From NCBI GenBank assembly GCA_035771175.1, contig CM069598.1:3393931-3457930 (forward strand): DNA of 64,000 nt. Reading direction: 5' to 3'. Origin of the DNA: Paratinospora sagittata. Lineage: Eukaryota > Streptophyta > Magnoliopsida > Ranunculales > Menispermaceae. Of this stretch, positions 8,501 through 36,300 are shown one piece after another. The notes beneath the pieces were generated by a model. The model had not been told where the DNA came from and ran no database searches. It was given only the letters and a program-made list of their open reading frames with translations. Numbering within the stretch: the stretch's first letter is position 1; each line of letters starts with the position of its first letter. The translations under genes and the position numbers were made by a program.

Positions 8501-8508
8501 TATAAAAA
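8501..8508 (+). promoter_or_regulatory. TATA box of DOMON gene 2
   Basis: TATAAAAA lies about 190 bp upstream of the gene 2 ATG in a C/T-rich leader context. The same sequence sits at 18573-18580 before gene 3, so the proximal promoters are shared by descent. Confidence 0.6.
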
Positions 8509-8694
8509 ACCCACTCTTCCCTCATTCTCTACTCACACTTTCAAGAGCTTTCGTCTCCTCCTCCTCTGTTTCACGTAAGCAAATCACTCCCTCTATTTTT
8601 TATATTTTTGTCATTGATCTCATCTGGGTTCTTCAGATTCCCCTGCATACTGATTCATTCTAGTGTTAACTTTCTCCTCTGATCAATCACCACC

Positions 8695-10128: not shown

Positions 10129-10218
10129 ATTGAGAGGCTTTCTTTGTCTGTTTTACTTTTACATTAGATAGTTTGGCTGTGTAAGTTTTTTTTTTTTATT
10201 GTTTTGCCATACGAGCAC

Positions 10219-12935: not shown

Positions 12936-14508
12936 TAGGGGTGGCAATTCAGGCCATTCGACCAGGCCCGGCCTGGTCCTGCCATATATAGGAATAGTCG
13001 GGCTGGCTGACATTAAAAAAGCTTAGCCCAAGCCCGACCCAAAAAATATATAGACCACCAATGTAACCAAATACATATTTTAATTCAATAATTAAATAAA
13101 AAATATTATTTATTAATTTCCAAAGAAATAACAAATAATTTCCAAATATTACAACAAATTTCCAAATAAACAAAAATAATTTCTAAACCTAAACTTCTCT
13201 AATTTACTATAAAATTCTAAATATTAGAATGTTACAACAATTTTTCAAACACTACATTACAACTTATTATTACAAATTAAATAAAAAAAATAATACAACT
13301 TATATAACAATTATTAAAAAAATATATAACAATACAATGTTTTAAAAATAAATTACTCAAGGTCTTCATCAACATCAAATAATTGTTCGATTCTATCTTT
13401 TTAATTGTACTAACACTCTTGATTATATTTTTTTCTTTCATTTTGTAAACTCTTATATATATATATATATCAGTGTGTGTGTATGTATAATATATTATCT
13501 TAAATCTTAATTATATTTTGTTTTTGTCATTTCATAGTCTAATGATATACTATATATACTCTAATTATGAAATAGACTAGGTACGTGGATTATTTATTTT
13601 ATTTAATTTATCTTAAATATGTGTTGATTCATTCTAATCATTAAAATGAGTGAGTTTATATATATAGTTGGATAATGTCTTAATTTCTTTCATAATTGTT
13701 ATCCAACCCATGTTATTATAATTTTGTTAAATTCATTATATATTTATATCTAGTTCTGCATGCTTTTAAAGAGTATACTTAATAAAACATACTTGGTAAA
13801 TCTTTTTATTTTTTATTTTTAGAGAGTATATTCAATAAAGTTTAAATGCAGAAAAATGAAAAGGAAACAATATGATATAAACTATATATATAATATCTTA
13901 GTTGATAATATGTACTCTTTTTTTCGTATTATATATTTTATTGAATATATTCTTAATAATGTATATATAATACAAATATATATATATATATATATAGTTG
14001 AATAATGTCTTTATTTCATAATTGTAGCCCAACCCATGTTATTATAATTTAGTTAAATATATTCATTATATATTTATATCTATCCCTACATACTTTTAGA
14101 TAATATACTTAATAAAGTTGAAATGTAGCAAAACAAAAAGGATGTAATATAATATAAACTTTATATATATAATCTTAGTTAATTATGTGTAATCTTTTTT
14201 CATATTATATATTTAATTGAACATACTCTTAATAATGTATATATAATACAAATATATACCCTTAATTATATAACACTCTTGACTTAATTAAATATATATT
14301 ACACACACTTTATTTACTCTTAATTGTAATAACTAATGGCATACACTTAATTATGTTTTTTTTTGTCATTTTGTGAACTCTTTTATATATGTGTGTGTGT
14401 ATGGTATGTATGTAGTATTTTTTTTTACACAATGTATATAGTATGTATTATATATACTATATATGTTTTAATTATATAACACAATCTTAATTATGTTTTA
14501 TTTTTTTC

Positions 14509-14578
<70 letters not shown>

Positions 14579-14898
14579 TTATTCTGAAATATATATATGT
14601 CAATGTGTATGTGTTAATTTTTAATTAAGAATAGTTTACACGTACACATGTATTTATTTTATAATATAAATATAATATATATACACTTAATGTGTAATTG
14701 GGCCTAAGATCGGACATTTGGGTCGGGCCTTTGAATCAGGTTAACGGGACGGGTCAGATCGAGTGATCACAAACTCGTTTAATAAGTTTTGAGACCAGGC
14801 CAAGCTAGCTCATATAATAGTCGGGCTCGAATCTGAATTGAGTCATTTATAGCGGGCCGGGTCAGGCCCATGGGCCTCAGACCAAATTGTCATCCCTA
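12936..14898. mobile_element. hAT-like nonautonomous element, copy A
   Basis: The ends TAGGGGTGGCAATTC (12936) and the complement of TAGGGATGACAATTT (ending 14898) are inverted repeats of the 'AGGGGTGGCAA' type common in plant hAT elements. Both are followed by GC-rich 'ggcccgg' subterminal words. The interior is very AT-rich and has no transposase. It includes a (TA)31 tract at 14511-14572 and internally repeated blocks around 13.7 and 14.05 kb. No convincing 8 bp target duplication was found, so the exact ends are uncertain. Confidence 0.45.
14511..14572. repeat. (TA)n microsatellite
   Basis: About 31 TA dinucleotides without interruption, inside the AT-rich element. The matching position in copy B (near 22372) has only a few TA units. 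Confidence 0.9.
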
Positions 14899-15711
14899 TA
14901 TATATATAGGGTTCAAATAGTTGTCCTCTAAAAAATTTTCAAATAATTGGAGATATGAGACCATAACTGTAATTTCTTGAATTTGTACTAATTAGGTTCA
15001 TGTCAAAGAATTTTATTGTTAAACACCATACATAGATATTCATCTAGTAACAGATAATGGTGATCAATGAAAAAGGAGGTAAAAAAGGAAAGTTGCTAGG
15101 TTCAAATATTAATGTGAGAAAGAAGAAAAGAGAACTTGAGGAAAAAGTAATAAAATTAATTTTTTTTATTAAAAATAATAAGTTGATATTTTCTTTAAAT
15201 AATAGGATTAACTTTTTATTAAAATAATAAAATTGACTTCTTAATAAAGTAATACAATTAAAATAAATAAATTTGATTTTTTTAAACAATAAATTATATT
15301 TTATTAATACTAAATTTTATTGGGGGTTCATGGGTTTCTTTGTTTCCTTTTAGGAAAAAAATACCTTAATTTTTAATGGAAATTAATTTTTTCGAAAAGT
15401 GAATACCACCTATATCGATATGAATCACCTTCCCATCGTCTGTGAAAAAAAAAAATACAAAAAAGGAAACAAACATGAATTTTTAATATTCTCAACATAC
15501 GTTACCCTGTACCATACATCTCCTAAGAAGATACGAGTAAACAATTAGAAACTATTTTGTCATGGAAGATGGTGTTTAACTTTAAATTCAAATTCAATCG
15601 GGTGATTAAAATATTAGAATAAGTAGTTATATTAATATATATTATTCAAAATACTCCTTTATAGTTGAAAAAGAAATAGTTAAATTGAATATATTAGTCA
15701 AAGAAGAGTAT

Positions 15712-17640: not shown

Positions 17641-18172
17641 AACAAATACTTTGAACCGTTTTTTAACATAAAACGAGAGAGTATGGTGGTGGTGTCATAG
17701 GAGAGTTGCAAGGAGAGAGAGAGGACCACGTCAACACGCCAAACATGACACTGGTAGTATTGCTGGGAAAGATCAAATTTGCTAAGGTTAGTATTCAGCA
17801 TACATAAAACATTTTTCAACCATTGAATACTGAACACATTGGGGGGAGGACAAATACTTTGAACCGTTTTTTAACATAAAACGAGAGAGTATGTATGGTG
17901 GTGTCGTAGGAGAGTTGCAAGGAGAGAGAGAGGACCACGTCAACACGCCAAACATGACACTGGTAGTATTGCTGGGAAAGATCAAATTTGCTAAGGTTAG
18001 TATTCAGCATACATAAAACATTTTTCAACCATTGAATACTGAACACATACTTTGAACCATTTTAAGATAAAATAGTTTTCACATAAAGAGAATACGCAGA
18101 GCTGCACAGAAAGAGAGATCGAGAGAGAGAGAGGGCCATGTCAACACGCTAAACATGACTAACATTGGCTAA
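17641..18172. repeat. Tandem repeat array A carrying antisense DOMON exon fragment
   Basis: Units of about 205 bp begin near 17641 and 17845, with a third, partial unit ending at 18172. Each unit has 'acaaatactttgaaccgtttt', a GA-rich stretch, 'ccacgtcaacacgcc', and then 'aaacatgacactggtagtattgctgggaaagatcaaa' (over two words). The last part is the reverse complement of DOMON exon 1 coding for 'ATLILPGNTT..VNHVW' (compare 26452-26500 of gene 4). The array stops abruptly at 18172, where copy B of the tandem duplication starts. Confidence 0.8.
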
Positions 18173-18572
18173 CAGTTCTTTTGCAAGTAACACCAAAAAA
18201 AAATATAGTTTTTACCTTTGCTCATAGCATATTATAGGCGTGCTACATTAATTCCTTAACACCACTTGATTCTCCATTGGGTTGAGAATCAATTGAATTA
18301 TTATTAATGCCCAAGTTGTGGGAACAGGAAGTAATATTAAGGCGACATTTCAAATATTTTTCAAGTGTAAAAAATGCCTTACTATTCCTTTTTTTTTTTT
18401 TTTTTTAATAATACCATCGGTTACGCGGAATCTGGATTGTAGAACAAACAGGAAATTATTAACGAAATCGAAGCTGATCATTAAAAAATAGAAAGAAAAA
18501 TAAAATAAGAATTAGAAACAAAATAACTATTCCGATTCCTACTACAACTCCAACACCCGACTCCAAAATTCT

Positions 18573-18580
18573 TATAAAAA
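18573..18580 (+). promoter_or_regulatory. TATA box of DOMON gene 3
   Basis: TATAAAAA, about 187 bp before the ATG, in the same context as in gene 2. Only about 590 bp of upstream DNA is shared with gene 2. Beyond that, gene 3 is preceded by the repeat array, so distal regulation may differ. Confidence 0.6.
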
Positions 18581-18766
18581 ACCCACCCTTCCCTCATTCT
18601 CTACTCACACTTTCAAGAGTTTTCGTCTTCTCCTCCTCTGTTTCACTTGAGCATATCACTCCCTTTATTTTTTATATTTTTGTCATTGATCTCATCTGGG
18701 TTCTTCAGATTCCCCTGCATACTGATTCATTCTAGTGTTAACTTTCTCCTCTGATCAATCACCACC

Positions 18767-20194
18767 ATGCCCGGTTCGTCGTTAACACCGCTTCTTCTTT
18801 TCTGTTTGCTTTTCACTTCCTTTTCCTTGGCCACTACTCAAACTCAAACTTGCGGGAACTATAAATTTACTAGTAACAGAGATTTCAGTTCCTGCAATGA
18901 CCTCCCAGTTCTGAACTCTTTCCTACACTGGAACTATGATACTGTTACGAGAACTGTGAATCTAGCATATCGACATACCAACATAGATTCCGGTAAATGG
19001 GTCGCTTGGGCAGTCAATCCAACCGGTCGAGGCATGGTTGGAGCACAATCTCTTGTAGCTTTTCAAAATTCTAATGGAGTTATGCAGGCTTATACGTCGC
19101 CTATAAGCGGGTATCGCACACAGTTGCAGCAAGGAAACCTGTCTTTTGCGGTTGGTGAGATCAAAGCTGAGTTTAGCAACAACGAGATCATTATCTTTGC
19201 TACTTTAACACTTCCGGGCAATACTTCTACTGTGAATCAAGTGTGGCAAGATGGCCCTGTTAATGGTAACATTCCAGGAATTCATCAGATGGATGCAGAT
19301 AACGTGAAGTCCACAGGAACTGTAGATTTTGAGTCTGGCCAGTTGAAGACTTCGGGAGAAGTAACAGATCCAAGGCGTAAAAGCAAGATTGTAAGTAACT
19401 GATTTATAACTAAACGACATTTCTAAATTGGGTTGCTTTTATTTCATGAACTAATGATCTAATGTTTTATATAAATTCAATGGATATCTTCAGATTCATG
19501 GAGTTCTGAATGCTGTGAGCTGGGGAATTCTTATGCCGCTCGGCGCCATAATTGCTAGGTACTTGAGGGTGGTCAAGCCGGCTGATCCTACTTGGTTTTA
19601 TCTTCACGTCGCTTGCCAATCTTCGGCTTATGCAATTGGGGTTGCTGGATGGGGAACCGGTCTTAAACTCGGGAGCAATTCTTCTGGTGTTCGATACAAT
19701 CCTCACAGGAACATTGGCATTGCTCTCTTTGTTCTGGGCACACTTCAAGTAAGTATCTTTTCCGGTCTTTTAATCAAAATCACATGTAGATTGGTAATGG
19801 CCAATGCAATAGAAGATGTGTTTATATGTCATGGTTTTGCTAGGATTTTTTTGATCTAACAGGGCTTTTGTATTGGAATGTTTAGGTGTTTGCTCTGGCA
19901 CTACGACCCAAGCCTGATCATAAGTACAGAATTTATTGGAACATTTATCATCGCGTCACAGGGTGTGTTGTGATCATCCTCAGCGTCGTTAATGTCTTCA
20001 AGGGTATTGATATTCTGCAACCTGATAAGATGTGGAAGCAATCGTACATTGGTGTTATTGTGGCGTTGGGTGTCATAGCTTTCATCTTAGAACTACTTAC
20101 ATGGATGGTTATTACGAAGAGGAAGAAGGATGCAGAGAAGCTCCAGAATATCACAACTGTGGTAAATGATGGAGTAAAGACTGAGCAAGTGTAG
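18767..20194 (+). CDS. DOMON gene 3: cytochrome b561 and DOMON domain-containing protein
   Basis: Near-identical twin of gene 2. Exons 18767-19390, 19494-19748 and 19886-20194 give about 395 aa, two residues shorter in the Gln-Thr repeat after the signal peptide. The b561 haem histidines are at about H210, H246, H279 and H315, and every splice site of gene 2 is kept. The exon 2 proteins are identical. Substitutions in exon 3 are conservative (A/S, A/V, V/I) apart from M/K near the C-terminus. Shared descent from the 10 kb tandem duplication explains the match. Both copies look functional, since no stop or frameshift is seen. Homology to gene 2 ends about 85 bp after the stop codon, so the two 3' flanks, and perhaps poly(A) sites, differ. 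Confidence 0.94.
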
Positions 20195-20282
20195 ATTGAG
20201 AGTCTTTCTTTGTCTGTTTTACTTTTACATTAGATAGTTTGGCTGTGTAAGTTTTTTTTTTTATAGTTTTGCCTATGAGCAC

Positions 20283-20709
20283 TATTTCATCTTTTTCGTC
20301 TTCTTCCTTCTTCAATCACTTCTCTAATCTGCATATTCTTTTACTTATAAGTACTATTTCAACCGTCTAAGATTATCTTTAAAATGTTTAAATTATTCAA
20401 CGAAAATCTTTCAAAAAAGAACGAGTGTTGTTTTGCTCTCTTGGAGGGAGGAGGAAATCACGACGGACAAGAAAATGATGGGAAATAAAGAGAGAGAGAA
20501 GAAAATGGTGAAAACCTATGGTTTTGGATTTAGGGGGTAGGGTTTTAGGGAGAAGAAAATGATGGGAGGAAAAAGAAGAATGGTGGTGTTGAGATGAAAA
20601 TGGGAAGGGTAGTTTAGGTTTCGTTGGTTTTTTGGGTGGGGTAGGAATAATATTAAGGGTTTGGGTGGGGTAGTCTTAGCAATTGGGACGAGGATAGGTG
20701 ATATGTGGG
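20283..20709. repeat. Shortened copy of the 12.18-12.93 kb segment
   Basis: Matches 12181-12285 and then 12648-12935, joined at 'attcaacgaaaatctttc'. Sequence equivalent to about 12285-12645 is missing. No gene is seen. Confidence 0.65.
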
Positions 20710-21228
20710 TAGGAATGGCAATTCGGGCCATTCGGCCCGGCACGACCTGGTCCTGCCAGATATAGGAATAATCGGGCCAGGCCGACATTAAAAAACCTTG
20801 ACCCAAGCCTCACTCAAAAAATATATAGACCACCAATGTAACCAAATATATATTTTAATTCAATAATTAAATAAAAAATATTATTTATTAATTTCCAAAT
20901 AAATAACAAATAATTTCCAAATATTACAACAAATTTCCAAATAAACAAAAAATAATTTCTAATCCTAAACTTTTCTAATTTACTATAAAAATCTAAATAT
21001 TAGAATGTTACAACAATTTTTCAAACGCTACATTACAACTTATTATTACAAATTAAATAAAAAAAAATTAATACAACTTATATAACAATTATTAAAAAAA
21101 ATATAACAATACAATGTATTAAAAATAAATTACTCAAGGTCTTCATCAACATCAAATAATTGTTCGATTCTATCTTCTTAATTGTACTAACACTCTTGAT
21201 TATGTTTTTTTCTTTCATTTTGTAAACT

Positions 21229-21266
<38 letters not shown>

Positions 21267-22703
21267 TGTGTGTATGTGTATGTGTATGTATGTATGTATA
21301 ATATATTCTCTAATTATATATTCTCTTAAATCTTAATTATGTTTTGTTTTTGTCATTTCATAGTCTAATGATATACTATATATACCATAATTAAGAAATA
21401 GACTAGGTACGTGGATTATTTATTTTATTTTATTTATCTTAAATATGTGTTGATTCATTCTAATCATTAAAATGAGTGAGTTTATATATATAGTTGGATA
21501 ATATCTTAATTTCTTTCATAATTGTTATCCAACCCATGTTATTATAATTTAGTTAAATTCATTATATATTTATATCTAGCCCTACATACTTTTAAAGAGT
21601 ATACTTAATAAAACATACTTGGTAAAGCTTTTCATTTTTTATTTTTAGAGAGTATATTCAATAAAGTTTAAATGCAGAAAAATAAAAAGGAAACAATATG
21701 ATATAAACTATATATATAATATCTTAGTTGATAATATGTACTCTTTTTTCGTATTATATATTTAATTGAACATATTCTTAATAATGTATATATAATACAA
21801 ATATATACCTTTAATTATATAGACTCTTGACTTAATTAAATATATATATGTAGTTGAATAATGTTTTTCTTTCATAATTGTTGCTCAACCCATGTTATTA
21901 TAATTTAGTTAAATATATTCATTATATACTTATATCTAGCCCTACATACTTTTAGATAGTATACTTAATAAAGTTGAAATGTAGCAAAACAGAAAGGATG
22001 AAATATAATATAAACTTTATATATATAATCTTAGTTAATTATGTGTAATCTTTTTTCATATTATATACTTAATTGAACATACTCTTAATAATGTATATAT
22101 AATACAAATATATACCCATAATTATATAACAGTCTTGACTTAATTAAATATATATTACACACACTTTATATACACTTAATTGTAATAACTAATGGCATAC
22201 ACTTGATTATGTTTTTTTTTTGTCATTTTGTGAACTCTTTTATATATGTGTGTGCGTGCATGGTATGCATGTAGTATTTTGTTTTTACACAATGTATGTA
22301 GTATGTATTATATATACTATATATGTTTTAATTATATAACACAATCTTAATTATGTTTTATTTTTTTCATTGTATATATATGTCAATGTGTATGTGTTAA
22401 TTTTTAATTAAGAATATTTTACACATACACATGTATTTATTGTATAATATAAATATAAAATATATATATACACTGTATGTGTAATTGGGCCTAAGATCGG
22501 ACCTTTGGGTCGGGCCTTCAGGCGGGGCCTTTGAACCAGGTTAGCGGGACGGGCCAGGTCTAGCTATATGATCAGAAACTCGTTTAATAAGTTTTGAGAC
22601 CAAGTCGGGCCAACTCATATAATAGTCGGGCTCCAATATGAATTAAGTCATTTATAGCGGACCGGGTCAGCCTCATGGGCCTCGGACCAAATTGTCATCC
22701 CTA
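20710..22703. mobile_element. hAT-like nonautonomous element, copy B
   Basis: The same element as at 12936-14898, with ends TAGGAATGGCAATTC and the complement of TAGGGATGACAATTT. It was duplicated with the 10 kb segment rather than inserted independently, since the flanks also match. It has its own (TA)n tract at about 21231-21262. Confidence 0.45.
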
Positions 22704-23670
22704 TATATGGGGTTCAAATAGTTGTCCTCTAAAAAATTTCCAAATAATTGGAGATATAAGACATAACTGTAATTTCTTGAATTTGTACTAATTAGGTTCA
22801 TGTCAAAGAATTTTATTGTTAAACACCATACATAGGTATTCATCTAGTAATAGATAATGGTGATCAATGAAAAAGGAGGTAAAAAAGGAAAGTTGCTAGG
22901 TTCAAATATTAATGTGAGAAAGAAGAAAAGAGATCATGAGGAAAAAGTAATAAAATTAATTTTTTTTTATTAAAATTAATAAGTTGACAGTTTCTTTAAA
23001 TAATAGGATTAACTGTTTATTAAAATAATAAAATTGACTTCTTAATAAAGTAATACAATTAAAAAAATAAATTTGATTTTTTAAAACAATAAATTATATT
23101 TTATTAATACAAATTTTATTAGGGGTTCATGGGTTTTTTTGTTTCCTTTTAGGAAAAAAATAACTTTTATTAATGGGAATCAATTTTTCGGTAAAGTGAA
23201 TATCACCTGTATGGATGTGAATCACCTTCCCATCGTTTGTGAAAAAAAAAAACGCAAAGAAGGAAATAAACATGAATTTTTAATATTCTCAACATATGTT
23301 ACCCTATACCATACATCTCCTAAGAAGATACGAGTAAACAATTAGAAACTATTTTGTCATGGAAGATGGTGTTTAACTTTAAATTCAAATTCAATCGTGT
23401 GATTAAAATATTAGAATAAGTATTTATATTAATATATATTATTCAAAATACTGACCCTTTATAGTTGGAAAGGAAATAGTTAAAGTTGAATTAGTCAAAG
23501 AAGAAAAAATAAATAACACATCTAAAATATAAATGAATAATCAAAGTTTCTACGTCAATATATTATAGTCTTTAAAGTCCACTGTGTTTAATAACACTTA
23601 AATAGAATTACAATTAAAATCAACCACTTAATTAACTGAGCGAAGGGTAGGCGGGGAATATCATTTTTTT
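22704..23670. other. AT-rich spacer equivalent to 14.9-16.67 kb
   Basis: Matches copy A closely until about 23497, where the roughly 0.79 kb palindrome-bearing segment of copy A is absent. Short open frames are not supported by any homology. Confidence 0.5.
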
Positions 23671-23770: not shown

Positions 23771-23940
23771 GTCTGAGGATGGGGAGGGAGGTTTTTGGAG
23801 GTGGCGAGAACGGTGATGACCGGTGAGGCCACGGAGGGTAGTATTGCGAAGAGGGGTCTGAGGATGGGGAGGGAGGTTTTTGGAGGTGGCGAGAACGGTG
23901 ATGACCGGTGAGGCCGCGGAGGGTAGTATTGCTGGAAAGG
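23771..23940 (+). repeat. 85 bp tandem duplication in G-rich DNA
   Basis: Two near-identical units (23771-23855, 23856-23940) share 'gtctgaggatggggagggag' and 'gagaacggtgatgaccggtg'. Both end in 'gtagtattgc', the entry into the DOMON-derived repeat. Confidence 0.8.
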
Positions 23941-24570
23941 ATCAAAAGTTGCTAACGTAAAACATGGCATTAGCATCGAACCTACATAAAACATTTTTCA
24001 ACCGTTGAATACCGAACACATACTTTGAACCATTTTAAGATAAAACATTTTTCACACAAAGAGAATACAGTGGTGTCGTAGGAGAGCCACACAAAAAGAG
24101 AGATAGAGAGAGAGGGCCACGTCAACACGCCAAACATGACTGACAGCGGTAGTATTGTCGAGAAAGATTAAAGTTGTCAACGTGAAAAAATGACGTAGAC
24201 AGTCAACATACATAAAATGTTTTTTTCAACCCTTAAATATTGAACAAATACTTTAAACTGTTTTAATATAAATCATTTTTCATGCAGAGAGAGTATGGTG
24301 GTGTTGTAGGAGAGTTGCACAGAGAGAGAGAGGACCGCATCAAAACGCCAAACATGATTGACACTGGTAGTATTGCTGGGAAGGATCAAAGTTGCTAACG
24401 TCAAAAAATGGCGTTAACATTCAGCGTACATAAAACATTTTTTAACCATTGAATACGAAACAAATACTTTGAACCATTTTAACATAAAACATTTTTTACA
24501 CAGAGAATATGGCAGTGTCGTAGGAGAGTTGTACAGAGAGAGAGAGATAGAGAGAGGGCCACGTCAACAC
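23923..24570. repeat. Tandem repeat array B carrying antisense DOMON exon fragment
   Basis: Three units of about 220 bp. The exon-derived word 'gccaaacatga' recurs near 24132, 24349 and 24571, and the first unit is truncated at 'gtagtattgctgg' (23923). The non-exon part ('taacgtcaaaaaatggcgtt...acataaaacattttttaacc...actttgaaccattttaa') also matches single-copy-like DNA upstream of gene 4 (about 25229-25320). The array runs directly into the inverted exon fragment at 24571-25041, whose end is the likely founder of the repeated 49 bp. Confidence 0.8.
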
Positions 24571-25041
24571 GCCAAACATGATTGACAGAGGTAGTATTGC
24601 CGGGAAGGATCAAAGTTGCAAAGATGATAATTTCCTTTTTCCCAAGCTCAGCCCCAATCTTAGTAACAGGAAAAGAAAGATGTCCATGTTGCAACTGGGT
24701 GTCATAACCTTTGATTGGAGCTATGTAAGCAGTCGTCCTTCCATCGGATTGCTGGAATGCTACGAATGCTTGAGCTCCGATCATGCCCGTCCCTGTTGGA
24801 TTGATAGCCCATGTAGCCCACCATCTTGATTCAACACTGGTATGTCGACACGCCAGATTAAGAACTCTAGTCGTAGGATAATAATTCTAGTTCAAGGTGG
24901 CCTTCAATCCCCTCAAATCTTGGCAACTAGGAAACACAATTTTTTCGGAAGAGAACGTGAAGCCACCGCAATCTTTTTTGGTGATGGGAATATAATTGAT
25001 AGATTAACAAGAATGCAGAACATTAGTGACTACGACTTCAT
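24571..25041 (-). pseudogene. Inverted DOMON exon 1 fragment, broken
   Basis: On the minus strand this follows exon 1 of gene 4 from its second Met (25041, like 26038) to 'VNHVW' (24571), about 470 bp. It keeps 'TRVLNLACRH', 'WAINPTGTGMIGAQAFVAF', 'LSFPVTKIGAELG' and 'LPGNTTSVNHVW'. An in-frame stop at codon 4, further stops and frame changes in the 5' half mean it cannot encode the domain. It is more diverged from gene 4 than the copy at 27921-28240, so it is older. The minus-strand frame then runs into GA-rich repeat sequence. Confidence 0.85.
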
Positions 25042-25120
25042 GGTGAAGACAACGTAAGATAACACAAATCCTCACGCACATTTGAATATTTGAATCTTAA
25101 AATCTTTAAAGTAATGTGTT

Positions 25121-25265
25121 ATGTACGTTATGGTGCTAACGTCATTTTCTAACACTAACACCCAGCCTCCGATGAATGTTAAGAATGTTGGGTAATATAC
25201 ACGCAACTCTAAAATATCAAAAAGAGTTAGATGCCAACGACAAAAAATAGCGTTGGCTGGTACAT
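25121..25265. mobile_element. MITE-like palindromic element in the left arm
   Basis: Left end 'ggtgctaacgtcattttcta' and right end 'gccaacgacaaaaaatagcg' are imperfect inverted repeats, with 'atgtac' and 'gtacat' at the borders. Copies lie in the right arm (about 28958-29104) and at 10586-10742. Confidence 0.45.
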
Positions 25266-25788
25266 AAAGCATTTTTTAACCATTAAATACTCAACAAATC
25301 CTTTGAACCATGTTAAAATGAATGTTAAACACTGGGTTGCAAATATATTTTTTCAACTATTTTTTTTTTATAAATGGGGAGGCATGGGGCTCTTGTCCAC
25401 TAGGCCAACATTAGTATTTTTCTAACTTTGAATGATCCCCGCCACTTAATAATCCTTTTTCTTGAAGTATTTTTTTGTTTTTTTTTTTAAAGAAACAACT
25501 GAAGGCCTCTAACCCGTTGGACACCTGGCCCGCCATTATCCGTGGGGTGAATCCTTTTCTTAAAGTTAGATACTATGTTAATTATTTTTTTTCGTTCATA
25601 ATGTTTATTTTCCTGAAAACTGATACTTTTGTAAAAATCAATCAATCAAATTTATATAAATTAGAGGGCAATACAAAAAAAAAGAGTCAATTAATTAGGA
25701 GTGAGGGGAGATTGGGTTTTAAAAGCCAGGATTTGGAGTTGGAATTTATTTATTTATTTATAAAGATATGAGGGCTCTTTGCCAAAAT

Positions 25789-25854
25789 GATGCCCGGTTG
25801 CATGAAATCATAACATTTGTTGTACATAATCTTGATGCCATGCAACCAGGCATC
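25789..25854. repeat. Small hairpin about 140-200 bp upstream of gene 4
   Basis: GATGCCCGGTTGCATG (25789-25804) pairs with CATGCAACCAGGCATC (25839-25854), one mismatch, 34 base loop. The right arm carries the same hairpin near 28379-28444. Confidence 0.75.
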
Positions 25855-26937
25855 ACTAACAATAATAGGCACAACACCATCCAAACTCCACGTCACATTA
25901 TAAAAAAATAAAATAAAAATCGAATGCTATAGATAAAATAGAAAATAAAAATGAACCGCCAACCCAAACAAACCCATTAGTTCAGAGAGACGATGAAGTG
26001 GGAATCTCCCTCCGTTCGATCTTCTTTCGTCTTCACCATGAAGGCAGCGCCGTTCGTGTTCTTCATTCTTGCTAGTCTATGGATTCCGATCACCAGCAAA
26101 GGCTGCCTTCACTACACGTTCTCCTCCGAAAAAATTACGTTTCTTAGTTGCCAAGAATTGAGGGGATTGAGCGCTGCGTTGTACTGGAATTACGATGCCA
26201 CGACCAGAGTTCTCGATCTGACGTGTCGACATAGCGGTGTTGAATCAAGACGGTGGGCTGCATGGGCTATCAACCCAACAGGGACGGGCATGATCGGAGC
26301 TCAAGCATTCGTCGCATTCCAGCAATCCGATGGAAGGACGACTGCTTACACAACTCCAATCAAAGATCACGCCCAGTTGAAGCAAGGAAATCTTTCTTTT
26401 CCTGTTACTAAGTTTGGGGCTGAGTTTGGGAAAGAGGAAATCATCATCTTTGCAACTTTGATCCTTCCCGGAAATACTACCACTGTCAATCATGTTTGGC
26501 AACGAGGGCGTCTCAATGGCAACGTTCCTCAAATTCATGCCATGAGTGCGGCCAACAGGGAATCAACGGGCTCCATCAATTTTGAGTCGGGGCAATCTGG
26601 GGGGACGTCAGGAGAGCCAGTGGATCCAATTTCAAAGATCAAGAATGTAAGCCTCTGATTACATTAATCTTGTCAATTTATTTATTTTTGAACAGAAAAA
26701 TTCTTGTTTATATAATTCTTTTTCTTTTTCCTTTTTTTTTTTTTCTTTCTGAAGAAAGCTTGTTAATTCGGCCGACTTCATGTTATTTTCATCATGGGCA
26801 ATTTTCCCTGGTTATGATTTTTGAATTTTATGAGTAAAATCTTTAAAAAGTATTTTTGAATTTGATCAACCATAATTATAGCAGCAGTTGGGACTGTTTC
26901 CTTTGCAAGCATATGCTATTAATGTTTCCTCAAATAC

Positions 26938-26967
26938 ACCATACCACCATACCACCATACCACCATA
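26938..26967 (+). repeat. Minisatellite in intron 1 of gene 4
   Basis: About four copies of 'caccatac' in a row. Too short and without spacers to be anything else. Confidence 0.8.
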
Positions 26968-27017
26968 ATCGACCTTTCTAAAGAATCTTTGTCAACTGAG
27001 AGAAGAATTATGTGTTT

Positions 27018-27195
27018 GTGGTTTGTTTAGCTTTATTGTGCTATCTTTTGTGGCTGTAGTTTGTTTGTTTGTATCTTGATCTTGGGTATACCCTGCCATA
27101 TGAGTATTGCTGGTACTCTGTTTCTTCACTGTGCTTACTCTCTTTGCATTATGAATATAAAGTAAATGTACTTTGTTTCTTCTCAAAAAAATAAA
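27018..27195 (+). mobile_element. Very short LINE 3' end in intron 1 of gene 4
   Basis: The 178 bp segment has the T/G-rich 3' trailer and A-rich tail seen in the other LINE fragments. It is flanked by AGAATTATGTGTTTG (just before 27018) and AGAATGATGTGTTTG (after 27200), 14 of 15 identical, a probable target duplication. No coding sequence remains. Confidence 0.5.
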
Positions 27196-27199
27196 AAGA

Positions 27200-27430
27200 G
27201 AGAGAATGATGTGTTTGAAGGCGCCATATTCCAACCTTCTGAGGATGAATTTATTTTTCAGTAACTTAAAAGACTTTGTTTCCATATTTCTCTGGGACTT
27301 TGTTAAGTCCCATGTTAGAGATTCCACCTCTAAATTACAAACTCCACATTGAGCAGATTTTACAACTTTCCTTTTCCATAAATTTTCATAAGTAGGAAGA
27401 GAATGATGAATCAACTTCCAAAACACTTGT
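27200..27430 (-). mobile_element. Fragment of a reverse-transcriptase zinc-binding domain
   Basis: The minus strand reads 'FWKLIHHSLPTYENLWKR' and then 'CGVCNLEVESL', the start of the zf-RVT domain of plant LINE polyproteins, followed by unrelated frame. It is a small decayed LINE piece in intron 1 of gene 4, interrupted by the 3' fragment listed at 27018-27195. Confidence 0.6.
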
Positions 27431-27920
27431 TTTAATTCTTTGGTTTCCAGGGCTTTTCATATATTTGTGCTATTTTTTTTCTCTTTCTGAAAAAGAAATA
27501 CAAAATCTTATTGAATGCATTTCAGGTTCATGGAGTACTCAATGCTGTGAGTTGGGGAGTCAGTATGCCCCTTGGTGCCATCATTGCTAGATACTTAAGG
27601 CTGGTGAAGCTAGCTGGTCCAGCATGGTTTTATCTTCATGTTTTTTGCCAATCTTCGGCTTATGCAATTGGGGTTGCTGGATGGGGAACCGGTCTTAAAC
27701 TCGGGAGCAATTCTTCTGGGGTTCAATACAATCCTCATAGGAACATTGGCATTGCTCTCTTTGTTCTTGGCACACTTCAAGTATCTTTTTCACTCTTTTA
27801 ATCAAAATCACATGTAGATTGGTTATGGCTCATACAATATGTGTTTATATGTCATGGTTTTCTAGGATTTTTATTTATTTTTTAATCTAATATTGGACTT
27901 CTGTATTGGAATGTTTAGGT

Positions 27921-28240
27921 ACGAATGCTTGAGCTCCGATCATGCCCGTCCCTGTTGGGTTGATAGCCCATGCAGCCCACCGTCTTGATTCAACACCGCT
28001 ATGTCGACACGCCAGATCGAGAACTCTGGTCGTGGCATCGTAATTCCAGTACAACGCAGCGCTCAATCCCCTCAATTCTTGGCAACTAAGAAACGTAATT
28101 TTTTCGGAAGAGAACATGTAGTGAAGGCAGCCTTTGCTGGTGATCGGAATCCATAGACTAGCAAGAATGAAGAACACGAACGGCGCTGCCTTCATGGTGA
28201 AGACGAAAGAAGATCGAACGGAGGGAGATTCCCACTTCAT
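27921..28240 (-). pseudogene. Inverted 5' fragment of DOMON gene 4 exon 1
   Basis: On the minus strand it begins at the same ATG as gene 4 and runs to 'GAQAFV', 106 codons plus two bases. It has only a few differences (for example T to M in 'LHYxF' and T to A in 'DLxCRH'), so the inversion-duplication is recent. The frame then enters the former intron 2 and cannot continue the domain. Confidence 0.9.
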
Positions 28241-29142
28241 CGTCTCTCTGAACTAATGGGTTTGTTTGGGTTGGCGGTTCATTTTTATTTTCTATTTTAT
28301 CTATAGCATTCGATTTTTATTTTATTTTTTTATAATGTGACGTGGAGTTTGGATGGTGTTGTGCCTATTATTGTTAGTGATGCCTGGTTGCATGGCATCA
28401 AGATTTTGTACAACAAATGTTATGATTTCATGCAACCGGGCATCATTTTGGCAAAGAGCCCCCATATCTTTATAAATAAATAAATAAATTCCAACTTCAA
28501 ATCCTGGCTTTTAAAACCCAATCTCCCCTCACTCCTAATTAATTGACTCTTTTTCTTGTATTGCCCAGTAATTTATATAAATATGATTGTTTGATTTTTA
28601 CAAAAGTATCAATTTTCAGGAAAACAAACATTATGAACGAAAAAAAATAATTAACATAGTATCTAACTTTAAGAAAAGGATTCACCGACGGATAATGGCG
28701 GGTCAGGTCTCCAATGGGTTAAAGGGCCTTCAGTTGTTTTTTAAAAAAATACTTAAAGAAAAAGGATTATTAATTGGCTGGGGATCATTCAAAGTTAGAA
28801 AAATACTAATGTTGGCCTAGTGGACAAGAGCCCCATGCCTCCCCATTTATAAAAAAAAAATAGTTTGAAAAAATATATTTACAACCCAGTGTTTAACAAC
28901 ATTCATTTTAACATGGTTCAAAGGATTTGTTGAGTATTTAAGGGTTAAAAAATGCTTTAAGTACCAGCCAACTTTATTTTTCGTTGTTGGCACCCAATCT
29001 CTTTTGATATTTTAGAGTTGTGTGTATATTGCCCAACATTCTCAACATCAATTGGAGGTTGGGTGTCAGTGTTAGAAAATAACGTTGGCACCCAACGTAC
29101 ATAACATATTACTTTAAGGGTTTTAAGATTCAAATATTCAAA
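27921..29142. repeat. Right arm of 1.2 kb inverted repeat around gene 4
   Basis: Inverted copy of 25081-26312, beginning immediately after intron 2 of gene 4. From right to left it carries a MITE-like element, upstream DNA with the small hairpin, a start codon at 28240 and 320 bp of exon 1. The duplicated upstream DNA faces left, so any promoter it contains would drive antisense transcription into gene 4. Confidence 0.9.
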
Positions 29143-29146
29143 TATT

Positions 29147-29340
29147 GGCTCGGTCGTAAGGCGAATGTGAGGTTAAAGAGGTCTCAAGTTCGAATCTTGA
29201 TTTGACGAGTTTTCTACCTTAAGTATCCTCACTAATACGTGTAGGTATCAGTAGATTAGTTAGTTACTAGGATTAAATAACTCTCCTCAAAAATATAAAT
29301 GAAAAAATGATTAAATAACTCTGCTCAAAAATATAAATGA
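29147..29340 (+). mobile_element. Possible tRNA-derived SINE remnant
   Basis: 'tggctcggtcgtaagg' and 'caagttcgaatcttg' resemble the A and B boxes of a tRNA-type polymerase III promoter. They are followed by A-rich DNA with a 40 bp tandem repeat ('ttaaataactct.ctcaaaa', 29273-29349). It begins just outside the right arm of the inverted repeat. No cloverleaf can be drawn, so it is not a tRNA gene. Confidence 0.4.
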
Positions 29341-29431
29341 AAAAATTAAAAAAATAATATAAACATGCTTTAAATTAATAAGGCAATACATTCTCTCTTA
29401 AAAAAAAAATACAATATAAAATAAAAGATTA

Positions 29432-29577
29432 TGGGCCTATACGCCCAACAAAGACCATATTACATCTTAATAAAACGGGCGAGTGTTTAACAAAAAGCCC
29501 AGGGCTATTTTCGTAATTTCGAAAGTAGGGTTTTAAAAGACGAAGCAATCGCCATATATGATCTCTTGAAAACCCTA
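29432..29577 (+). promoter_or_regulatory. Site II and telo-box promoter elements of RPS8
   Basis: TGGGCC at 29432-29437 and the complement of TGGGCT at 29496-29501 are site II words. A reversed telo box (29526-29533) and a forward AAACCCTA (29570-29577) follow, about 55 bp before the ATG. This pairing is the known signature of plant ribosomal protein promoters and agrees with the downstream gene. Confidence 0.75.
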
Positions 29578-29631
29578 GTTCTTGCAGCAGCAGAATCCAG
29601 GGGTAGCTTCCTTCAACTCCTCGGCGCAACC

Positions 29632-32211
29632 ATGGGTACGAATCCCTTTCATTCACCGTTTGTTTTAATCGTTCCCTTCTGTTTTGTTTTTCCTTATTTT
29701 CTCTGGTTTTAATGGCGAAAAATGTGATCTTTCGACAGGTATTTCACGTGATTCCATGCACAAGAGGCGCGCCACTGGAGGCAAGAAGAAGGCCTGGAGG
29801 AAGAAACGAAAGTACCTTCAAAACAGAAACCCTAAACCTAATTTTCTCAACCACATTGAATTGCATCTTCGATCCCTCTCTGATTTCTTATTATTTTGAT
29901 TTCTTATTACAATTTCTCATGTTATTCGTTTATTATTTTGATTGATTTAAGGTACGAGCTCGGAAGGCAACCGGCGAACACGAAGTTATCGAGCAACAAG
30001 ACGGTTCGCAGAGTTAGGGTTCGCGGAGGGAACGTGAAGTGGAGAGCTCTGAGGCTTGATACGGGGAATTATTCGTGGGGAAGTGAAGCGGTGACGAGGA
30101 AGACTCGTATTTTAGATGTGGTTTACAACGCATCTAATAATGAGCTTGTGCGTACGCAGACATTGGTGAAGAGTGCGATTGTTCAGGTTGATGCGGCTCC
30201 GTTCAAGCAGTGGTATCTGCAGCATTACGGTCTTGATATTGGGAGGAAGAAGAAGACCGCTGCTGCTGCTGCTGCTGCTGCTGCCACTAAGAAAGAAGGA
30301 GAGGTATTAAATAATGTTTTGTTTTACTTATTTTGTATAAGGAAATAGATTTATTTTAGGTGTTTGTGTCAGTTTATGGTGTGAAAAATTTATGAAATGA
30401 CTGATTAATCTGCAGTAGGTTTTAAGCTGAAATAACTTAATTGGTATGGATTAGTTTAATTGTGTGGTTTTCTTAAAAAAATTGCTAAAAAAAGTTAGAT
30501 GGATGTTCTTGTAGGTTTTTGTAGTGGAAACAGTGAAGATAAGTTAGTGTTTTATTTTTAGTGGATTAAAACTGTCTGTGATGATTTTCATTGGGATGAA
30601 CCGGATGTTTGTATCTATAATACTTTACATTTGTTTTACCATAATGGTTGTTTTTTTTATTTAATGTTGTTTAGTGCCATAGGTTTTGGTGGTTATTTTC
30701 TAATTATTGCATCTAGATCTTTGGATTGAACTTCTCTAATTTAGTGAACCTTCGTTTAGTAATAGATCTAAGAGTCTTGTTCTGAAATCTCAATATTTGT
30801 TATTTGGTTTGGGTAATGGAGGTATATCTGTAAAAGGGTTTCTTCTAATCTGGTGTCACTGATCCATTGATGCCTTGCAAAATATGTTGGTTTCACCTTA
30901 GCAGTTGACATGATGAGTTTTTCTACTCTCCTATACCAGAATAAAATTTTAATGCCCAATTCCCTTGTCTTTGCTTTTCTTATGTACCTAGGCTCCAATA
31001 TCTGGGATAGAAATATGTTGTATTACTTTTCCTTGTTAATTCACTAGTAACGATTGACCTATGAGCAGATTTAGACATTAGCTCTATGCTTTCCCTATGT
31101 TTGGTTCTTATTTCTTATTGCTGCCTGTCCTGATATATGCTTTGCAATTATATAATCAGTTCATACACATGGTCCCCTGCTTCTGCAATATTTGTCAAGC
31201 TGTAGGTATAACTATAACCCTACACATTAGGGGTATTGTTTCCAAATGTCCAATGTCAAATAATATTTTGTATTAAAATTTTCATATAATACCATTTCTT
31301 TCCAAATGGACATTTGTTTTTGTTTTTGTTTTCATGTTTTTGTTTTTCATGTGACTATATTATAACTAATTATGCTTCTTATGTGCTACATGATATTTCT
31401 CATTTCCTTCCAAATTACTTTGACATATTATTGTGTCTGTATTATGTTCTTTCCTGATCAGTTAATATTCTTGTGTTCCCTGTGACATGATTCTTTACCC
31501 GAGGCCATAAGAAATAAGAATGTTTTGCAAGCAGCATTTTTTATATTTCTATGTGGTTTCTCTAAGTTTGGCTCCCTTTGTATTGATTTCTTTTAATAGG
31601 AAGGTGATGCTACTACTGAGGAAGCAAAGAAAAGCAACCATGTCTTGAGGAAGCTTGAGAAGCGTCAACAAGATCATAAGCTTGACCCACATCTAGAAGA
31701 GCAATTTGGTAGTGGCCGTTTATTGGCTGCAATCTCTTCCCGACCTGGTCAGTGTGGTCGTGCAGATGGGTATGTGATGTTTTCTCCACTCAAATTTTCA
31801 CTTCTTTTCTTACAAAATTAGTGAATCTGTTATTCCTGGCCTTACCTCAAGAGCTCGCCCCACTCCCCCTCCCTCATAAAAAAACACAAGTAACGTGCAA
31901 ATATTCCATTAGTTATATGTGACAAGTTGTTAAATCCTTGTTACTAAGTGCAACGAAGGCCATGGGGGGTGGGTAACTCTCAGTTATATTTCTCTTTTCT
32001 GATGATCCCTATTCTTTTTTGACTTGTTTCCAATTTGTTCTCTAATATCATTCAATTCTAGAAAACATTTTTTTTAATAAACTGCAAATAGGAACTAATC
32101 TTAATTAATTTGATATGTTTTACTGACAGGTATATTTTGGAGGGCAAAGAGCTTGAGTTCTATATGAAGAAACTCCAGAGGAAGAAGGGCAAGGGTGCAG
32201 GGGCTGCCTAA
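29632..32211 (+). CDS. RPS8: 40S ribosomal protein S8 (eS8)
   Basis: Component of the cytosolic small ribosomal subunit. Five coding exons fit: 29632-29635 (only ATGG), 29739-29811, 29952-30303, 31600-31769 and 32130-32211, giving 226 aa, close to plant S8 proteins. The N-terminus '[20 protein letters not shown]' is the S8e signature, followed by '[12 protein letters not shown]', '[15 protein letters not shown]' and '[10 protein letters not shown]'. The C-terminus has '[20 protein letters not shown]' and '[14 protein letters not shown]'. A run of nine Ala (30261-30287, mostly GCT codons) in the variable region is coded by a triplet repeat. Intron 3 (30304-31599) holds nothing recognised. The first coding exon ends one base after the ATG, so the start was fixed by frame and by conservation of 'MGISRD'. 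Confidence 0.96.
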
Positions 32212-33381: not shown

Positions 33382-36300
33382 TCATGGGTGATCTCTGGGC
33401 TCCAGAGCAGCAATTTCTTTTATAACCTGTGCTTTGTCTGCCTCAAATTGTTCATCCTCTGTCCAAAAATATAAAGAGAGAAACCCATTTAATTATATGG
33501 ATTGCAAAGAAAATACTGAAGCAAAGCCTATAATCAACACCAGTAAAAGAAAAGAGCTCTGTACCTTTGTCAACCTTAAAGTTGCCAAAGAATCGGAGAA
33601 GCTTGCTTCTATTTGCAACGAGTATGGTAGCTATCTCAGGAGGCTTATTTTGATTGGCAGCAAAAAGCTATTAATAAAAAAATAAAAATAAAAACTATCA
33701 GATCCCCCGAAAAAACATAAGTAAATGGCCAGAAAGTGAATCACCTCATATTAGTCATTTGCATACAAAACATCATACCTTGAACACATGAAATGCTTCC
33801 AACTGGATTGTCTTGCTTGATTCCTGAAAATGAATGAATCCCCCAATTTATGGGAAAAAAATTTATTTATAGCCCTTGATGTAATGTTCTTTTGTACATT
33901 ATCATATAAAACAATAGCAAACCAATACTATGCTAATAATAAATTAACAATAACAGGAAAATAGTCTAGCAACTGCAACTGCAACTTCAGAAATGGTCAT
34001 GAAAATCAATTAAAAATTACAAGATAATTACAGCAAAGAAGACGGGAACTAGCATCTCAGCTTCCCTTATTTCATCTCTTACTCTATTTTTTAGTGGATG
34101 AATATACAATTTTATACATTTGTTGACTAGCCCATTAATATCAAAGGGAGGTAGAACAAAACTCTTGCTTCCTAAGCAAACAAAAGTTTAAGGATTTCAA
34201 CCTTGAACAAAACAAAAAAAAAGAATATTTAAGGGCAAAGATAGAAAATAATTATAAGGTAATAGGGGATAAAGTTTCCCTTGATGAATAAACCAAAGGG
34301 AAAAACAAATAAACAAAAGTTTGTTGTTGTCTCTATTGAAGCATGACCAGCAAAAATCTAGAACTTTAGCGTCTATGAATATGCAACCCGTGTTATTAAG
34401 GCGTTGGCTTGGCACAAGGCATCACTAGGCATTTTTTCGGTTCTCTGTACATTTTGAAACTTTCATCAGTTCACTATACTTAGCAATTCAACCTACCTCA
34501 TAAAAAAATTCTTTTAAGAAGGTATTATTGTTGTATAATGTTTTAAGATCAGAAACACCCTTTCTAGAAGGCTTGATAGATGGAAACATTCTCTTCTTTC
34601 AAAAGGGGGGAGGTTGGCTTTGATAAGATCAGTCCTTCTTGCCATTCCCTCCTATTTTCTATCTCTATTCAAGATTCCCATTGGAGTGGCTTCCTCCATA
34701 GAGGGGAAAATTAAACAGTTCTTTTGAGGGGGGGGGGGGGGGGGGGGGGGGGGGGCGGGGGGAGAGGGGTATGTGGTTTGAGAAATCTGGTTAAGTGGAA
34801 GACAGTGCAGAAGCCGGTGGCAGAGGGGGGTCTTAACATTTGGGAACATTTCAAGGAGGAATATTGATTTATGTGGTAAATGGTTATGGAGATTCATGAA
34901 GGAGCAAGAATTGATTTGGGCTAGAGTCATCACTAGCCGTTACAGCAGGTTGAATATTCTTGGGGGTGGAATCAGAGTCAGGACATCAAGGAGATTGACA
35001 TTGAGGGGTCCTTGGAGGTTTATTGGATCTCTTACACCCGCGGTTGCTCCTTTCATCTCATTCATGGTGGGGAATGGGGAGCTTTTTAGATTTTGGGAAG
35101 ATAGCTGGCTTGGTCCTCGACCATTGGCAGAATCCTTCCCGAAACTATATAGATTATCCGTCTTACATAATCAGCTTATAAGAGATTTTTTAGCCCTTGA
35201 TGAAAATTCACATACATTCCCTTCCCCTCTTCCTTGGAACTTCCATTTCTCTAAAGCATTAACTATTAGGGAACATGATGAAATATTAACCCTCCTTTCA
35301 ATTCTTGACCAAATTAGATTATCATCACAATCCAATAAGATCATTTGGTCTCTTGAACCGATGGGTTGTTTTCTTGTAAATCTCTTCAGGCCATCCTTAA
35401 CAATCAGTCTACTGCATCACAGTTTCCATTTGCACCTATTATTTTGGCAGTCGCGGATTCCATCAAAAATTAAAGTCTTCGGTTGGATACTGGCTCACCA
35501 TCATCTGAATACAATGGATTTATTGCAGAAAAAACTTCCTAATACATCTATCTCTCCCCATTGTTGCTTGTTTTTCCATCAGGGTTGCGAATCTTTGGAA
35601 CATATTTTCCTCCAATGTTCCTATGCCCGCAACTTGTGGGCGAGGTGGTTATCTTTTTCTGGTAACAGGTTCTTGCCTCCCCATACTATAGATGATTGTT
35701 TCTCTTTACCCCTGAACACTATCGTATCAGGTTCTGTTAAGGAAGCACCGTTATGTGCTTCTTTTTCAACATTATGGCTCATATGGCTGGAGAGAAACAA
35801 TAGAGTGTTCAATGATAGGTCGAGGGGTGTCGCCTCTCTTTGGGAGATCATTAAGTTAACGGCCAGCTCGTGGACTCATGCAGCTAATCTGGCTCAAGGA
35901 CTGTCCATTTCTGATTGGATTGGGGATTGGAACCGATGTTTGCATTGTACTTAATGGTTTTTTTTTAGGATCATTACAAGACTTTGTGTAGTTTGTTTGT
36001 CTTGTTTTCGCACATGTTTGTTCTGGTTTGTTGGGTTTTCTTAGCACAGCTTGTGCTGTTTGTTTGCTTCGTTATCACCATATTTGATTATTTAATAAAG
36101 CATATGTTTCTGCTCAAAAAAAAAAAAATATCAGAAACACCCTTCAAAAAAAAAAAAAAAATTCTCCTCAAGAGATATATCGGTTGTTTAAGTTTTAAAA
36201 CCTTAAAAATACTTAATATTATATGTAGAAAGATTATATGTTTATTTTGTGCAAAATACCTAATGGTAAGCACCACCTCATTTTAAGTAGGATAAGTTAC

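Follow-up and report, generated by a model that had tools for sequence, protein, structure and literature searches.

In the window (the whole stretch of 64,000 nt of Paratinospora sagittata DNA analysed here), gene 4 is a member of a DOMON / cytochrome b561 cluster and a broken paralogue, in which the 3' end has given way to an inverted copy of the 5' end, including the upstream region. The inverted repeat is real and we propose, with a probability of about 0.47, that it makes gene 4 a locus that shuts itself down or is kept low by its own double-stranded RNA. The features of the locus are:

23922..24619, no strand assigned: tandem array, 3.1 x 218 nt, containing antisense pieces of gene-4-lineage exon 1
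24571..25050, minus strand: antisense copy of gene 4 exon 1, older and decayed (BLAST self-comparison, exon 1 tree)
25080..26312 (1233 nt), plus strand: left repeat arm, made up of upstream DNA plus the initial 320 nt of the gene 4 exon 1 frame (BLAST self-comparison, alignment)
25828..26116, no strand assigned, partner 28117-28405: mismatch-free block of 289 nt (mismatch list of the arm alignment)
25899..25905, plus strand: TATA-like TATAAAA, putative in function, with a copy at 28328-28334 on the minus strand
25993..26646, plus strand: gene 4 exon 1, open, matching PF04526 (DUF568) with E 6.8e-27, its end set by GTAAGC at 26647
26647..27525, plus strand: gene 4 intron 1 (predicted)
26995-27456, minus strand: LINE-like fragment within intron 1 (zf-RVT, E 5.1e-6, scoring exactly at the cut-off)
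27526..27780, plus strand: gene 4 exon 2, with an open frame, assigned to the b561 type by homology
27781..27918, plus strand: gene 4 intron 2 (predicted), acceptor TTTAG retained, alignable with the second introns of gene 2 and gene 3
27919..27963, plus strand: fused third exon, coding VRMLELRSCPSLLG then a stop, translated from inverted exon 1
27921..29143 (1223 nt), minus strand: right repeat arm, in which the upstream region and the exon 1 start recur in inverted orientation (BLAST self-comparison, alignment)
28475..28488, plus strand: three AATAAA motifs that overlap one another within the right arm, putative 3' end of the plus transcript

In the BLAST self-comparison, the two arms, which are separated by 1608 nt, show 94.6% identity over 1240 columns (24 of them gapped, E value given as 0.0). 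A whole-window search that served as the chance control (E up to 1e-5, at least 60 columns, low-complexity filter on) returned nine inverted pairs, among which the gene 4 repeat is the longest and the most identical. A sequence-only reading of this DNA had announced a 1.2 kb inverted repeat over 25081-29142; the repeat is indeed there, but each end was placed one base off. The near-perfect pairing that it described between 26312-25993 and 27921-28240 corresponds to 317 identical positions out of 320. The ends of the repeat are sharp, and the DNA outside the left end differs from that outside the right end. Furthermore, an open frame on the minus strand of the right arm (28240-27890) runs on into the spacer. 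The outer arms also hold a short repeat that is present elsewhere in the window.

The identity between the arms is a mosaic. The inner 637 bp carry 7 substitutions, and the outer 0.6 kb carry 41 substitutions (29 of them transitions) and 22 gap columns. For noncoding DNA, 539 columns are the same, 41 different and 22 gapped in the outer arm, versus 313 the same and 4 different in the inner part (Fisher p = 4.5e-5, gap columns excluded). The 289-nt perfect block extends over the TATA-like box, the two candidate start codons (the second ATG of exon 1 being at 26038) and a start that, judged by eye, resembles a signal peptide.

The reading frame is unbroken from exon 1 through exon 2 to the fused third exon, which adds a 14-residue tail before the stop. 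A complete CYB561-DOMON gene combines a DOMON-type exon with a complete b561 core; gene 4 has the PF04526 exon 1 and has kept exon 2, but has lost exon 3, which is present in genes 1-3. As the sequence-only reading had proposed, exon 3 is replaced: the inverted joint sits 2 nt past the intact intron 2 acceptor TTTAG (AG at 27917-27918), with microhomology of at most 1 base (at 27920, the right side has the base of both the older copy and the exon 3 side). Exon 2 shares 88% nucleotide identity with gene 3 and 87% with gene 2; searched alone against Pfam it gave no match, and its homologues carry PF03188. Its pairwise dN/dS versus genes 1-3 is 0.13-0.16, a value that averages both lineages and is consistent with constraint before the break.

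Exons 1 and 2 of gene 4 share at most 58% identity with the best 120 of 1130 proteins (E at or below 1e-3), from which 22 were chosen by organism name for the trees, P0062 and P0022 being left out. In the exon 1 tree (25 rows), a branch supported at 98/98 separates the five rows from the window, together with two Stephania proteins, from all others; within this side, gene 4 is paired with the older copy (100/100, long branch). The grouping suggests a plant close to Menispermaceae, the family of Stephania. In the exon 2 tree (24 rows), which leaves out this older exon 1 copy, gene 4 groups with genes 2 and 3 at 87/73.

The older copy (85% identity to 26500-26029) was absent from the sequence-only reading. 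It has one in-frame stop over 24994-24569 and a start-like ATG that is out of frame with that stretch. At the three coding differences between the arms, it sides twice with the right arm and once with the left one; therefore, the right arm need not derive from the present gene 4. Since this decayed copy and tandem arrays adjoin the locus, the stretch appears prone to rearrangement. To the right of 29143, a tRNA-like sequence was noticed by eye only, and ARAGORN found no tRNA in 28900-29500. A search of plasmid records gave no match, as expected for a plant.

The near-perfect repeat is present in the DNA, and a single transcription unit crossing it can be modelled from splice sites and motifs. 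The fold model of the spliced RNA, which was computed on the actual sequence only, with guessed ends and two retained intron bases (26647-26648), gives 379 arm-to-arm pairs in register, i.e. a stem of about 380 bp. The predicted spliced loop is 591 nt (26313-26646, 27526-27780 and 27919-27920), in agreement with the 0.6 kb announced. Both arms contain the TATA-like block and the 0.9 kb of DNA that precedes the start, and the right-arm copy of the upstream region is oriented towards exon 2. Hence, the sequence supports both the hairpin-forming anatomy and the upstream duplication that would make convergent transcription possible, as previously claimed. The promoter, transcription start and transcription end of gene 4 are guesses from motifs. 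Moreover, AATAAA motifs at 27870-27879 on the minus strand, ahead of exon 2, and at 27190 on the plus strand, within intron 1, could stop either transcript short of the second arm. A MIRNA gene, with its short foldback and one precise duplex, does not correspond to a modelled stem of about 380 bp, and the whole window gave no match to Rfam at gathering score.

Silencing of the relatives, genes 1-3, by the stem had been suggested with some doubt, and the doubt proved justified. We compared 363 stem 21-mers with the coding exons in the window (ungapped, 21-mers only, G:U counted as a mismatch). For genes 1, 2 and 3 respectively, 1, 0 and 0 of the 363 match within three mismatches and 5, 0 and 0 within four, versus means of 0.0, 0.1 and 0.0 and maxima of 0, 3 and 0 within four mismatches for 30 first-order Markov draws of the stem. 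The match to gene 1 thus exceeds chance yet is small. The coding part of the stem shares 58, 54 and 50% identity with genes 1, 2 and 3 for the left arm, and 59, 55 and 55% for the right arm aligned by codons. On these mismatch counts and identities, silencing of the coding exons of genes 1-3 by the stem was rejected, none of the three being a closely similar target in trans. By contrast with the stem, exon 2, which sits in the loop, is a far closer match to genes 2 and 3: of its 236 21-mers, 0, 43 and 64 are perfect to genes 1, 2 and 3, and 101, 139 and 149 lie within three mismatches. For the rest of exon 1, the latter counts are 22, 18 and 18 of 316. Against the older copy, 18 of the 363 stem 21-mers are perfect and 133 within three mismatches. 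The upstream part of the arm (25080-25929), compared with the rest of the window outside 24000-30000, gives 0 of 830 perfect 21-mers and 10 within one mismatch; matches at this level are short tracts, in the tandem array (24426-24436) and at 62618-62619, 48130-48134 and 3979-3982. The hairpin would most likely act on the damaged gene 4 itself rather than on its intact neighbours.

In the mechanism that we favor, the firing of either promoter would produce RNA that folds into a double strand of about 380 bp or pairs with RNA from the opposite promoter. DICER-LIKE enzymes would process this double-stranded RNA into RNAs of 21-24 nt, which would act chiefly on the gene 4 locus and its decayed copy. 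Methylation would then extend to both promoters, so that the locus would shut down or stay at a low level. We infer that self-silencing is the likeliest outcome because both arms include upstream DNA of the gene itself, in contrast to the promoters reported for PAI1-PAI4 and GmIRCHS; a promoter farther to the left of the repeat is conceivable. Excerpts of a study on hpRNA transgenes (PMC9263138) describe methylation of perfect repeats and the adjacent promoter, with self-silencing, which was blocked by mismatches in the repeat (designs including 1 in 4 and 2 in 10). Compared with these mismatched designs, the inner arms of gene 4 are far nearer to perfect, whereas the outer arms carry the substitutions and gaps given above. 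For the inner arms, the CpG observed/expected ratio reaches 0.96 and 0.92, compared with 0.56 for the whole window, and the left and right outer arms have values of 0.74 and 0.49; therefore, the inner arms bear no sign of long methylation and the outer arms give no clear answer. The arms may be too young for CpG depletion. These inner-arm ratios, the AATAAA motifs before the second arm and the diverged outer arms speak against self-silencing. As to origin, the simplest view is that two gene 4-type copies stood tail to tail, that the middle was lost by end joining and that conversion between the arms followed; an inverted insertion would look identical.

Other explanations have to be weighed against self-silencing. 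It is conceivable, though rather unlikely, that gene 4 is an inert pseudogene in which the inverted duplication is a by-product of cluster rearrangement and transcription is too low to matter. The loss of exon 3, the rearranging stretch indicated by the decayed copy and tandem arrays, the inner arms without CpG depletion and the almost complete lack of matches between the stem and genes 1-3 would all fit, but exons 1 and 2 remain open, and the 289 bp with the TATA-like box and the starts are identical between the arms. We regard as distinctly less probable a silencer acting in trans, for which convergent transcription or spreading would yield small RNAs from the exon 2 loop on genes 2 and 3 (less on gene 1), or the stem would act on paralogues elsewhere in the genome. 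The many exon 2 21-mers matching genes 2 and 3, those of the remaining exon 1 and the upstream-region copy facing exon 2 argue for it; however, exon 2 is not in the stem, the stem scarcely matches genes 1-3, and the minus-strand AATAAA motifs come before exon 2. A combination of both behaviors seems improbable: near-identical promoters facing each other across exon 2 would make their own double-stranded RNA, become self-methylated and switch between an on and a silenced state, exon 2 small RNAs tuning genes 2 and 3 in the on state.

The continuous frame could also encode a functional truncated protein made of the DOMON domain and part of the b561 core with the new tail, which is very unlikely given that exon 3 of genes 1-3 is missing and that the mRNA would terminate in its own antisense. 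Even less credible is an assembly artefact (caused by a read that folded back or by haplotypes joined in error), to which the 99% likeness of the inner arms might point: the mosaic identity, with diverged outer arms, argues against an assembly foldback, as do the 1608 nt between the arms and the different sequences of the two outer flanks. Least probable is the capture of the gene fragment by a transposon bounded by long terminal inverted repeats, in spite of the sharp repeat ends and the recurrence in the window of the short repeat of the outer arms, since no target-site duplication flanks the element. A TIR DNA transposon or Pack-MULE was accordingly rejected, no direct repeat being common to both ends (CTCACGCAC on the left, ATTGGCTCG on the right).

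Small-RNA genes and dominant silencers can arise from natural inverted gene duplications, which supply their raw material. At the gene 4 locus, the obvious neighbours are poor stem targets, and the promoter region within the repeat, together with the mosaic arms, would offer a system to ask if such loci self-silence before finding targets in trans. Among the open-licence papers returned by a search for a DOMON inverted repeat, none dealt with one, judged by title and abstract start, but comparable inverted-repeat loci are already known in other plants. For instance, at the rice Lgc1 glutelin locus, a deletion between tail-to-tail paralogues leads to read-through into the antisense copy. The same deletion origin is favored for gene 4, the undeleted form not being observed here.

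The earlier comparison with PAI and CHS loci holds for the shape but not for the promoter, which is reported as foreign there, whereas gene 4 has its own upstream DNA in both arms. As described in excerpts of PMC3203196, PAI1-PAI4 of Arabidopsis Ws consists of tail-to-tail genes fused to a heterologous promoter, whose start site precedes the methylated part by about 500 bp; the locus acts on singlet genes that share identity with it, and PAI RNAs of 21-24 nt occur at low levels in Ws. Both loci are natural inverted repeats of endogenous genes in a small duplicated family, with palindromic RNA there and possibly here, but genes 1-3 are poor targets. Soybean GmIRCHS, as described in PMC13051633, is tail-to-tail with a 78-bp spacer and joined to a promoter part of a DnaJ gene. 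Like gene 4, it is a pseudogene-made inverted repeat (about 1.1 kb) adjoining a family member; unlike it, gene 4 has a 1.6 kb spacer with exons and introns.

Another parallel is the relic SRK gene of Arabidopsis. According to excerpts of PMC7075917, the inverted repeat of Col-0 suppresses SRK transcripts and an SRKb transgene with which it shares 89% identity, whereas recoding of the transgene to about 66% lets it escape, and small-RNA reads map to SRKIR(Col-0) and the putative SRKIR(C24). These repeats, like that of gene 4, lie within a relic, pseudogenised gene, and the 502 bp of SRKIR(Col-0) are comparable with the modelled 380-bp stem. Finally, in the inverted-duplication model of miRNA origin (Allen et al. 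2004, as described in part of PMC3237417), a segment of a coding gene is duplicated in inverted orientation; gene 4 likewise would be a candidate young small-RNA gene, with arms that are long and near-perfect instead of the short foldback of a miRNA.

The sequence-only reading had described gene 4, the broken member of a DOMON / cytochrome b561 gene cluster present in the window, as an inverted repeat in which the start of exon 1 replaces exon 3; this structure was confirmed and extended. BLAST of 24500-30000 against the window paired the left arm (25080-26312, plus) with the right arm (29143-27921, minus) at 94.6% across 1240 columns, 24 of them gap columns, and a repeat finder delimited an inner core of 637 nt at 99%. 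A whole-window search retrieved nine inverted pairs of at least 60 columns. Besides the gene 4 arms, they link an older, decayed antisense copy of exon 1 to gene 4 exon 1 and to genes 1-3; the rest are three repeats, each 62-63 columns long, and a palindrome. The inverted repeat of gene 4 is far beyond chance.

Genes of the cluster (predicted from homology and splice motifs), exons of gene 4 and tandem arrays
about 4.98-7.19 kb: gene 1
about 8.70-10.13 kb: gene 2
about 18.77-20.19 kb: gene 3
from 25993: gene 4
25993 (or 26038) to 26646, plus strand: gene 4 exon 1, open
27526-27780: gene 4 exon 2
17642-18048: tandem array, 2.0 x 209 nt, antisense pieces of gene-4-lineage exon 1
23922-24619: tandem array, 3.1 x 218 nt, antisense pieces of gene-4-lineage exon 1

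A Pfam search placed exon 1 of genes 2 and 4 in PF04526. Single-exon queries gave no Pfam match for gene 4 exon 2 nor gene 3 exon 3, which are labelled b561 because their homologues carry PF03188. A segmental duplication (8108-10218 / 18173-20282 and 12648-15707 / 20398-23504) gave rise to genes 2 and 3. Identity is 97% across the genes; downstream, two overlapping matches give about 89%. An imperfect palindrome occupies 13815-13960 (72% across 152 columns). A CYB561-DOMON protein record from a different plant, Ilex paraguariensis, shows a tandem doubling of its exon 2 segment; this may be genuine or an annotation error.

In gene 4 exon 1, a signal-peptide-like sequence, judged by eye, starts at 26038. 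The exon joints are in phase 0, in line with those of genes 1-3, and intron 2 retains its acceptor TTTAG. After this acceptor, genes 2 and 3 carry GTGTTTGCT whereas gene 4 carries GTACGAATGC, and the fused third exon contributes VRMLELRSCPSLLG, then a stop. The exon 3 / inverted-arm joint shares one base at most; its probable origin is end joining that used hardly any microhomology, or none. Intron 1 contains a minus-strand LINE-like zf-RVT fragment scoring at the Pfam cut-off (26995-27456); a second zf-RVT frame lies at 34782-35951. Directly beyond the right arm, 29144-29260 looks tRNA-like by eye and may be a SINE; ARAGORN found no tRNA in this stretch.

Gene 4 itself may be chimeric. Its exon 1 shares 60-61% nucleotide identity with genes 2 and 3 and 64% with gene 1, against 87-88% and 82%, respectively, for exon 2. 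Intron 2 aligns with introns 2 of genes 2 and 3 within the same BLAST match, and the exon 2 tree groups gene 4 with these genes at 87/73, under the program's strong mark. Pairwise dN/dS is 0.13-0.16 for exon 2 and 0.11-0.30 for exon 1, the latter unreliable since dS exceeds 1.2.

The older copy (24571-25050, minus strand) matches 26500-26029 at 85% (BLAST), a third copy of exon 1. One in-frame stop interrupts the stretch 24994-24569, and the start-like ATG lies in a different frame from that stretch. In the exon 1 tree, this copy is sister to gene 4 (100/100), with a long branch common to both. Among 21-mers from 23922-24570 and 17642-18170, 52/629 and 24/509 match gene 4 RNA at <=3 mismatches; 0/629 and 0/509 match genes 1-3. 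Judging from the older copy and the antisense pieces in the two arrays, inverted copies of gene-4-lineage exon 1 arose more than once in the cluster.

The arms are mosaic: the outer part (25080-25675) has 539 identical, 41 different and 22 gap columns, the inner noncoding part (25676-25992) 313 identical and 4 different, and the inner coding part (25993-26312) 317 and 3. Outer and inner noncoding divergence differ (Fisher p = 4.5e-5), and 25828-26116 is free of mismatches. This pattern suggests conversion of the inner part between arms, or a composite origin, rather than a single clean duplication. An assembly foldback is unlikely, because the outer arms differ from each other. Of the three coding positions at which the arms differ, the older copy shares the right-arm base at two and the left-arm base at one. 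The right arm is therefore open to two readings, a sister copy or a copy of gene 4.

The hairpin-silencer interpretation stands in part. A plus transcript of 1556 nt was modelled (25930-26648 + 27526-27780 + 27919-28500), its start guessed from a TATA-like box (25899) and its end from AATAAA motifs (28475-28488). Its predicted fold, at -1003 kcal/mol, contains 379 in-register arm-to-arm pairs. Models retaining intron 2 or using the unspliced minus transcript give 380 and 382; such pairing results from the inverted repeat itself. Genes 1-3, which the sequence-only reading itself doubted as the closest targets, are a poor match for the stem (the paired arm portion): only 1, 0 and 0 of its 363 21-mers match them at <=3 mismatches, and 133/363 match the older copy, 18 perfectly. 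In a study of SRKIR(Col-0), an Arabidopsis inverted repeat, a target at 89% was suppressed and one recoded to about 66% escaped (PMC7075917). By that yardstick genes 1-3 would escape, because their identity to the coding stem is 50-59% (two alignments). The 236 exon 2 (loop) 21-mers match genes 1, 2 and 3 perfectly in 0, 43 and 64 cases, and in 101, 139 and 149 at <=3 mismatches; for the 316 remaining exon 1 21-mers, the latter counts are 22, 18 and 18. These regions would become double-stranded only with an active right-arm promoter copy and RNA running past the minus-strand AATAAA motifs at 27870-27879, or by spreading.

For hpRNA transgenes with perfect repeats, PMC9263138 reports methylation of the repeat and adjacent promoter, and self-silencing. 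Because the arms include the upstream region of gene 4 itself, the expectation with most support is a weak hairpin locus that would silence itself, acting in cis. The inner arms top the 15 rows measured for CpG observed/expected, at 0.96 and 0.92 (outer arms, 0.74 and 0.49; whole window, 0.56). These inner-arm values lend no support to long methylation; they either count against self-silencing or mark youth.

The gene 4 locus belongs to a known class, natural inverted duplications of genes whose RNA could form a hairpin. PAI1-PAI4 of Arabidopsis Ws is reported to be constitutively transcribed from a heterologous promoter, with a start some 500 bp away from its methylated part (PMC3203196), and soybean GmIRCHS to carry promoter sequence from a DnaJ gene (PMC13051633). 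In contrast to both, as so described, gene 4 has its own upstream region duplicated within the arms. Two features make the locus worth testing: its arms include the promoter region, and its neighbours match the stem too poorly to be good targets.
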